Shown: piece after piece, positions 7,649 through 31,790 of the stretch
Layout of the letters: the number at the start of each line of letters is the position of its first letter
Numbering within the stretch: position 1 is the stretch's first letter
NCBI RefSeq assembly: GCF_005435165.1
Contig: NZ_SGUC01000025.1
Span: forward strand, 1 to 45,044
Length of the DNA stretch: 45,044 bases
Direction: 5' to 3'
Source: Halorubrum sp. GN11_10-6_MGM
GTDB taxonomy: Archaea > Halobacteriota > Halobacteria > Halobacteriales > Haloferacaceae
Notes under the pieces: generated by a model
Told to the model about the DNA's origin: nothing
Seen by the model: only the letters and a program-made list of their open reading frames with translations
The model's database searches: none
Position numbers and translations under genes: made by a program

Positions 7649-7740
7649 GGGTAGATTGGGCTCGGGTCGGCGGGGAAGGGCGCTATGACTCCAGTCGCTC
7701 GTTTGTAAATATCCGATCGCGGATTGGCGCTGAACACCGC

Positions 7741-7854
7741 CAAAGCCCCAGTCGCGAGGACGACCCTCGACGACGCAAGGACCGCAAGGAGCGAGCGAAG
7801 CGAGCGACTGAGGACCGCAGCGAGTCGCGGGTCGTCCTCGCGACTGGGGCTTTG
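7741..7854. repeat. 25-bp perfect inverted repeat bracketing GCGAGCGAAGCGAGCG
   Basis: The left arm 7741-7765 starts CAAAGCCCCAGTCGCGAG. The right arm 7830-7854 is its exact reverse complement. The 64-bp spacer is made of short related words (gcgagcgaag, cgagcgactgagg, cgcagcgag). Similar words occur downstream of element B at 31360-31420, so this belongs to a dispersed repeat family. It forms the 3' part of element A when read on the minus strand. It is not a tandem or CRISPR repeat. Confidence 0.8.
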
Positions 7855-8005
7855 AGTCCCACCCCGCACCGCAACCGCACGGCACCTCACGCCTCCCCAG
7901 CCTCGTCGGCGGCTCCCGATGGTCGCCGCCGACTCCCTCGCGCGGTGCTCCTCGGCCGCACCGCGGCCTCGGAGGCACGCGCCACCGCAGTTGTTGTTTA
8001 TAAGT
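7741..8005 (-). ncRNA. Structured repeat element A, candidate multicopy RNA
   Basis: Read on the minus strand, a TATA-like CTTATAAAC (7997-8005) precedes a block that matches element B (31112-31440) in long stretches: GGTGGCGCGTGCCT (from 7986), the hairpin GGCCGC-GGT-GCGGCC, GCGCGAGGGAGTCG, CGACGAGGCTGGGGAGG and GGGACTC near 7856. Between the last two big blocks both copies have a hairpin at the same place, with different bases but intact pairing: here GTCGGCGGC pairs with GCCGCCGAC. That is the mark of a selected RNA structure. The element ends in the 25-bp inverted repeat. No convincing protein is encoded; the frames across it are arginine-rich and lack start signals. This fills the whole gap between the two dehydrogenase genes. 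An inert mobile palindromic repeat is the alternative. Confidence 0.6.
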
Positions 8006-30700: not shown

Positions 30701-31120
30701 ATGTCAGATCAACCGAGCGACCGCGAGACGACGAGCGCGCCCGACACCGACTCGCGCTTCGACGTCCCCCTCCGCGGAATCGATGTCGATCCCGAGACGC
30801 GCTGCGCGCACTGGGACGACGTGGTCGACGTGATCGCGCTCCGGTTCGGCTGCTGTGGGACGTACTACCCCTGCGACGCCTGTCACGACGCGGCCGCCGA
30901 CCACGAGGCGGTCCCGTGGCCCCGCGAGCGGTTCGACGAGCCGGCGGTGCTGTGTGGCGCCTGCGGAACGACGCTCACCGCCCGGCAGTACCTCGAAGCC
31001 GACGGCGACGCTTGTCCCGCGTGCGGGGTCGCATTCAATTCGGGTTGTCGGAAACATCGCGACCGGTACTTCGAAATCGAAGACGCGGGAGCGTCCGGGA
31101 GCGACGACGAGAATATATAA
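30701..31120 (+). CDS. CHY zinc-finger protein
   Basis: A 139-residue zf-CHY protein. The family order is visible: CAHW (Cys-x-His), CCGTYYPCDACHDAAADHE, then LCGACGTTLTARQYLE, and ACPACGVAFNSGCRKHRDRYFEI. The four-to-five Cys/His clusters suggest three Zn ions. In eukaryotes CHY domains occur in ubiquitin ligases (and in mitochondrial import factor Hot13). In archaea the role is unknown, possibly redox or metal handling. Upstream trmY is 11 bp away, so they are an operon. The stop TAA lies inside AATATATAAG, the TATA box proposed for element B. Start ATG at 30701. Confidence 0.88.
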   Translation: MSDQPSDRETTSAPDTDSRFDVPLRGIDVDPETRCAHWDDVVDVIALRFGCCGTYYPCDACHDAAADHEAVPWPRERFDEPAVLCGACGTTLTARQYLEADGDACPACGVAFNSGCRKHRDRYFEIEDAGASGSDDENI

Positions 31121-31440
31121 GTCGAACAGGCGGTGTGGTGGCGCGTGCCTATGAGGCCGCATCGCGGCCGAGTAGCACGCGCGAGGGAGTCGACCGGTCG
31201 GAGCGAAGCGGAGACCGGTCGACGAGGCTGGGGAGGAACGAGGCTGCGGTGCTGCGCGGGGACGGGATTCGAAGGGGCAGTCGCCGGCGGCTCCGCCGCC
31301 GGCTGCCCGTGGCGCGTCGTGCCACGCTGCCGCGAGGAGGAAGACGCGCGACGTAAGCACCGCAACGAGGGAGCGAAGCGACCGAGTGAGGAGCACAGCG
31401 AGCGCATCGACTCCTCCCGGCTGGGGCTTCGGTGGTCGTG
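31112..31440 (+). ncRNA. Structured repeat element B, candidate multicopy RNA
   Basis: A TATA box (AATATATAAG, 31112-31121) overlaps the stop of the CHY gene. About 21 bp on comes GGTGGCGCGTGCCT (31137-31150), then hairpin GGCCGC-ATC-GCGGCC, GCGCGAGGGAGTCG, a long hairpin, CGACGAGGCTGGGGAGG and GGGATTC. All but the hairpin match element A (7741-8005). In the long hairpin the stem GTCGACCGGTC pairs with GACCGGTCGAC; element A has a different but equally perfect stem there. A second hairpin GCCGGCGGC-TCC-GCCGCCGGC (31283-31303) follows. Downstream words such as gagcgaagcg and cagcgagcg recur as in A. No credible protein frame. Between 31441 and the tRNA-Pro I see only a hairpin (GACAGCGGCGCTGTC) and no gene. 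Confidence 0.6.
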
Positions 31441-31629: not shown

Positions 31630-31702
31630 GGGCCGGTGGGGTAGCTTGGTATCCTTCGGCCTTCGGGTGGCCGTAACCACGATTCAAATTCGTGCCGGCC
31701 CA
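31630..31702 (+). tRNA. tRNA-Pro (anticodon CGG)
   Basis: Acceptor arms GGGCCGG and CCGGCCC pair fully, with discriminator A and no encoded CCA. Anticodon stem CGGCC/GGCCG holds loop TTCGGGT, so the anticodon is CGG, reading codon CCG. T-arm CACGA-TTCAAAT-TCGTG and the D-loop with A14, GG and A21 are normal. Length 73 nt, no intron. A T-rich run (ctttttcc) at about 31714 can end the transcript. Confidence 0.95.
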
Positions 31703-31790
31703 CTACCCCCTTATACTTTTTCCAGCCTCTACTGACGGATTTTAGCGTCTCCACGGGCGGTCTCGGGATCGGTCGAACCGCGTTCGTCGG

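Follow-up and report, generated by a model that had tools for sequence, protein, structure and literature searches.

Elements A and B of a Halorubrum contig belong to a multicopy family of structured elements with near-invariant purine boxes

Among the described systems, REP/BIME sequences and their RAYT (Y1 HUH) transposases come close to the elements reported here, since they also combine many intergenic copies, hairpins lying beside conserved single-stranded sequence and strand asymmetry. However, the present elements have hairpins that differ nearly from copy to copy, near-invariant boxes and three helices, and some copy-rich genomes lack a Y1 gene. Rickettsia palindromic elements and other palindromic repeats are likewise hairpin cassettes distributed genome-wide, some of them in coding sequence. 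In the present case, such cassettes are separate short units that insert into an element which itself carries near-invariant unpaired boxes. By functional analogy, the repeated GA/GGA-type motifs on interchangeable hairpins may be compared with those of protein-titrating sRNAs of the CsrB/RsmZ type. Unlike these sRNAs, which occupy a few loci, the present element occupies more than 100. Finally, leuA-Halobacteria (RF03001) and other haloarchaeal Rfam families are also structured and restricted to haloarchaea, but leuA is a cis-regulator, and no Rfam model matches the present element.

Elements A and B lie in a window of 45,044 nucleotides (Halorubrum sp. GN11_10-6_MGM, contig NZ_SGUC01000025.1). 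At the gathering threshold, no Rfam 15 family matched either of them in the window, and the best candidate for element A at E<=5 was a chance miRNA model (E 1.7). When six further loci were compared with Rfam, leuA alone matched, elsewhere than the element. The earlier note, which knew of no named haloarchaeal RNA of this kind, was right on this point. Searches of the open literature by topic and by sequence string returned no description of the element; a 2017 list of 224 candidate RNAs lies outside this search and could include it. The structured repeat family is apparently undescribed: although it exceeds 100 copies per genome and covaries very strongly, neither Rfam nor the searchable open literature seems to include it. 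This opens the question of whether haloarchaea harbor an abundant unrecognized RNA or an unrecognized single-strand DNA transposition system. Although the motif GGTGGCGCGTGCCTG resembles the beginning of human 7SL/Alu, none of the SRP models matched, and a relation to SRP/Alu RNA was rejected as coincidence. Elsewhere in the window, ARAGORN calls a tRNA-Pro (CGG) at 31630-31703, which falls below the gathering score of the Rfam tRNA model.

Architecture, copy number and placement

The core of the family consists of a hairpin (P1), box 1 (GAGGGA), a variable hairpin (P2) and box 2 (GAGG.TGGGGAGG...GAGG). The boxes are near-invariant in the family, and the hairpins differ nearly everywhere while keeping their pairing. 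Element B (31114 to 31431, plus strand) has the same parts as element A (Table 1), in which a G-rich linker separates box 2 from the long terminal hairpin P3. The three blocks that the earlier note had reported as shared, in order, between A (minus strand) and B (plus strand) are present. They correspond to the 5' strand of P1 with its lead-in, to box 1 together with the beginning of P2, and to the end of P2 with box 2. The element is nevertheless longer than had been proposed, as it continues through P3 to a 3' tail. The stem that had been described as different in the two copies yet perfectly paired is P2, which is indeed fully paired in both. The 5' arm of P3 in element A is a perfected palindrome relative to other copies, being the exact inverse of the 3' arm. 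Element A is antisense to both its neighbors. At site B, the stop codon of the upstream ORF lies within the TATA-like box, an overlap also seen in several orthologues of the site.

Table 1. Positions of the parts of elements A and B within the window
Feature	Coordinates	Strand	Basis or remark
A, TATA-like box TTATAAA	7997..8003	-	first T about 20 nt 5' of P1
A, P1 hairpin, GGCGCGTGC../..GCACCGCGC, inner stem and GA/GA internal loop	7940..7983	-	fold; covarying pairs
A, box 1 GAGGGA	7934..7939	-	invariant in the alignment of copies, also in distant copies
A, P2 variable hairpin, GTCGGCGGC GA CC ATC GG GA GCCGCCGAC	7905..7933	-	fold
A, box 2, GAGG-C-TGGGGAGG-CGT-GAGG	7885..7904	-	column conservation: purines near-invariant, spacers free
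A, P3 long terminal hairpin, CAAAGCCCCAGTCGCGAGG../..CCTCGCGACTGGGGCTTTG	7741..7854	-	fold z -6.7; arm pairing in 74 copies
A, 3' tail GCGGTGTTC	7732..7740	-	recurs at 3' ends of other copies
B, TATA-like box TATATAAG	31114..31121	+	includes stop codon of ORF 30701-31120
B, P1 hairpin	31140..31182	+	fold
B, box 1 GAGGGA	31183..31188	+	invariant in the alignment of copies
B, P2 hairpin, GTCGACCGGTC..GACCGGTCGAC, with GCGAAGC mini-hairpin	31189..31223	+	fold
B, box 2, GAGG-C-TGGGGAGG-AAC-GAGG	31224..31243	+	column conservation
B, P3, with extra hairpin cassettes at about 31281-31335	31270..31431	+	

With up to two mismatches, the genome contains 131 occurrences (65 + 66) of the 17-mer CGACGAGGCTGGGGAGG, which spans the junction of P2 and box 2, whereas the reversed pattern gives 3. 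In a 792-kb search, a covariance model built from 51 copies recovered element A at E 5e-17 and element B at E 2e-21, values that are rough and that concern two of the training copies (A being L001). The 17-mer count and these scores therefore exclude chance as the source of the shared sequence. BLAST with element A gives 71 matches in its own genome and the covariance model about 119 copies, i.e. approximately one per 25-30 kb. Hence, A and B are not a mere pair. The earlier note, which had also allowed for a dispersed mobile repeat, is supported insofar as the family is a dispersed repeat. Two near-complete relatives carry 128 and 142 copies, three other genomes at least 150, and the lowest number among the Halorubrum genomes examined is 16. 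The named carriers are Halorubrum species almost throughout, together with Halobellus captivus and one haloarchaeal MAG. Within the order, 293 sampled genomes were searched, and the element was present at E<=1e-4 in 19 of 87 genera. Copy numbers reach 83 in a genome from another family and 75 in a different genus of the same family. No match was obtained outside the order in a 295-genome sample of the phylum searched with strict filters. Carriage by viruses was considered and dropped, since neither 2.9 million viral contigs nor the phage records gave a match. At one locus (L087, G000:C146:26-147), box 2 and part of P2 are repeated in tandem with a 35-bp period, which indicates that the core is able to duplicate locally. 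Moreover, several contigs of the genome start or end at a copy; such copies may partly account for fragmented assemblies.

A simple codon-usage gene caller allowed 87 of the 113 copies in named Halorubrum loci to be placed. Of these, 47 lie between convergent genes, 36 in co-directional gaps and only 4 between divergent genes, the corresponding numbers among gaps of 250 bp or longer overall being 64, 107 and 42. Copies in co-directional gaps have either orientation (18 vs 18). The median distance to the gene on the 5' side is 98 nt, and twelve copies overlapped a called gene. Copies thus avoid promoters and ignore the direction of their neighbors.

The TATA box that the earlier note had placed in front of the element is statistically real: 157 of 239 copies have a match of at least 6/8 to TTTATAAA within -60..-1, with the maximum at 17-22 nt 5' of P1, whereas a control window gave 11 matches and shuffled sequences 24. 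Its spacing fits less well with a promoter of the element. In leaderless genes of the same loci, the box lies mostly 27-32 nt before the start codon (14 of the 20 genes with a good box). Therefore, a transcript driven by the TATA-like box of the element is predicted to begin about 9 nt inside P1. This mismatch may mean that transcription starts closer to the box, that another promoter is used or that the box serves something else. Several distant genera have no obvious TATA box at that spacing.

Covariation, folded strand and exchange of hairpins

Covariation across many copies lies well above background, in agreement with the selected structure that the earlier note had proposed from two copies, and the refuting outcome named in that note, no excess of covariation in an alignment of many copies, did not arise. 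In the 51 core copies, standard pairs occupy 99.1% of pair cells, against 84.9% after shuffling, and double changes affect 140 cells, compared with 46 in shuffled alignments and 0-7 in slid controls. For 72 copies from genera other than Halorubrum, including other families, these values are 91.9% vs 71.1% paired and 230 vs 70 double changes; this set took no part in building the structure, but it was aligned with the model and so leans towards it. All seven P2 pairs show double changes in the 72-copy set, including four that are constant in the 51-copy set, and P1 pairs covary as well. At least five uninterrupted outer pairs are found in 197 of 207 distinct P2 hairpins, by a pairing walk that also admits a class whose stem starts one base later. 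The purines of box 2 are at or near 100% in both alignment sets, and its spacers vary freely.

The folded strand can be recognized from its mismatches and loops. When apposition was scored neutrally in P3 (74 copies), G.T outnumbered A.C (28 vs 5). The excess in P1 and P2 (60 vs 22) goes in the same direction, although bulged columns contribute some of the A.C and G.T is tolerated by the model alignment itself. Furthermore, of 168 P2 hairpins, 53 have a GCGAAGC loop and none has GCTTCGC; symmetric GA/GA internal loops are found on the G-rich strand of 43 of the 168 and never on the opposite strand. The excess of G.T and the loops confined to one strand therefore designate the G-rich strand as the folded one. 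The fold is under selection and is probably that of an RNA, even though the sequence taken by itself fits RNA or single-stranded DNA equally.

Several other structures or functions were considered and rejected. A GCT/GGC mini-hairpin proposed by RNAalifold within box 2 is lost in distant copies, which read GGA there. When ViennaRNA was run with G-quadruplex energies on ten copies, it used a quadruplex at box 2 in L302 only, a rejection that does not extend to haloarchaeal potassium. The lengths of 207 distinct P2 sequences modulo 3 (57, 34 and 116 for 0, 1 and 2) are not restricted to multiples of three, hence the element is not coding.

The replacement of the P2 stem between A and B had been taken as compensatory. 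At site A, all 12 orthologous copies (from twelve species, with intact boxes) carry different P2 hairpins, even though most of these species show about 88-94% identity in the neighboring gene. The same holds for all 14 orthologous copies at site B, and identical hairpins recur at other sites within one genome. Since every orthologous copy has a different hairpin, the difference between A and B results mostly from the exchange of whole hairpins between copies. Some stepwise change also occurs, for instance at site B, where GTCG/TGAC (with a G.U pair) in L130 corresponds to GTCA/TGAC in L137. The exchange plausibly proceeds by gene conversion, a process described as efficient between the chromosome copies of Haloferax volcanii (PMC11276520). 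These data open the question of RNA helix evolution through whole-hairpin exchange between loci. In one locus, L100, orthologous site A is empty, which indicates that sites are gained or lost. As regards the terminal inverted repeats and target-site duplication expected of a MITE of a DDE transposon, this site, the only clear empty one, offers no clean junction, and comparison by eye of the 5' and 3' ends of the element revealed no inverted relation.

Proposed action and rival explanations

We favor, with modest confidence, a reading that places A and B in a dispersed family of many copies which acts through its folded G-rich strand, most likely as RNA, with P1 and P2 serving as struts for the boxes. 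The element would be transcribed, and its interchangeable struts (P1, P2 and, in Halorubrum, the long P3) would position the near-invariant purine boxes GAGGGA and GAGG.TGGGGAGG...GAGG for a putative partner, a protein or the ribosome, that would bind them. Copies settle between genes and trade their hairpins, probably by gene conversion through the identical boxes; combinations devoid of the fold or of the boxes would be lost, so that only those which fold and keep the boxes would persist. The data show the copy number, the boxes, the covariation, the strand bias, the position and the replacement of hairpins at fixed sites, from which we infer transcription, binding of the boxes, movement of the hairpins by gene conversion and the way in which new copies arise. 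We propose more tentatively that the family is a functional RNA class, with tens to more than 100 loci per genome, which keeps its near-invariant single-stranded boxes and exchanges whole helices between loci as cassettes, module swapping prevailing over base-by-base compensation.

The main rival of the folded-RNA reading is a non-autonomous mobile element that has to fold as single-stranded DNA, as in REP sequences mobilized by IS200/IS605-type Y1 or other HUH nucleases. Its boxes would be sites of enzyme binding and cutting, and it would have no host function. A variable copy number above 100, together with an empty site at one orthologous position at least, would be usual for a mobile repeat but less so for an RNA gene. 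Neutral intergenic placement that avoids divergent promoter gaps, the tandem units of about 57 bp that follow the element and the GCGAAGC loops of P2, a sequence that forms a very stable mini-hairpin as DNA, also fit such an element. However, 11 of the 52 Halorubrum genomes have no Y1 transposase, among them the copy-rich G015, G005 and G027 as well as G004, an absence that concerns present-day genomes and is still compatible with past mobilization. The element has no match in the viral contigs, and old copies persist at orthologous sites without visible decay. Reverse transcriptase (RVT_1) was detected in none of the 52 genomes whereas control genomes were positive, so retroposition, for instance of a SINE-like retroelement, was rejected as a present-day mode of spread in Halorubrum. 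Taken together, we regard the mobile single-stranded DNA element as possible but rather unlikely.

Perfect stems could also arise without selection, as a purely mutational product of template switching at quasi-palindromes combined with gene conversion. The exact inverse arms of P3 in element A are those expected from template switching, and hairpins move as units. Nevertheless, many hairpins keep GA/GA and GGA/GGA mismatches, on one strand only, that palindrome correction would erase; the boxes, which lie outside the stems, hardly vary between genera, a constancy that conversion inside one genome does not account for; and the excess of G.T over A.C is a further argument against this explanation, which is already disfavored and which we hold to be highly improbable. 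A cis-acting element of neighboring transcripts, such as a terminator or a 3'-UTR stability element, would be in line with the frequent location between convergent genes and with the median distance of 98 nt to the gene on the 5' side. It is improbable given that copies do not follow the direction of the upstream gene and that element A is antisense to both neighbors. Finally, the density of copies in the genome could suggest a landmark read in double-stranded DNA, for instance by a nucleoid protein or as a recombination site, but neither covariation nor strand asymmetry would be expected if duplex DNA alone were read, and we give this possibility almost no credence.

Associated repeats

Two types of shorter repeats accompany the family. 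Short hairpin cassettes (e.g. GAGGGACAGAGTCCCTC-TGGCAACCGGGCTTCGCCCGG-TGACAG) form tandem arrays inside the upstream gene of site B (L141-L150). Such cassettes also insert into the boxes and arms of the element (L093, L129, L058 and the window at about 31281-31335), and appear to be another, second family of palindromic elements. Moreover, about four tandem units of 57 bp lie directly 3' of the element in L096 (2425-2663), and such units are also found in L093-L095, at site A. Each of them carries a TATA-like box and CTGGGGCTTTGGAGGTGTTCG, and their number depends on the species.
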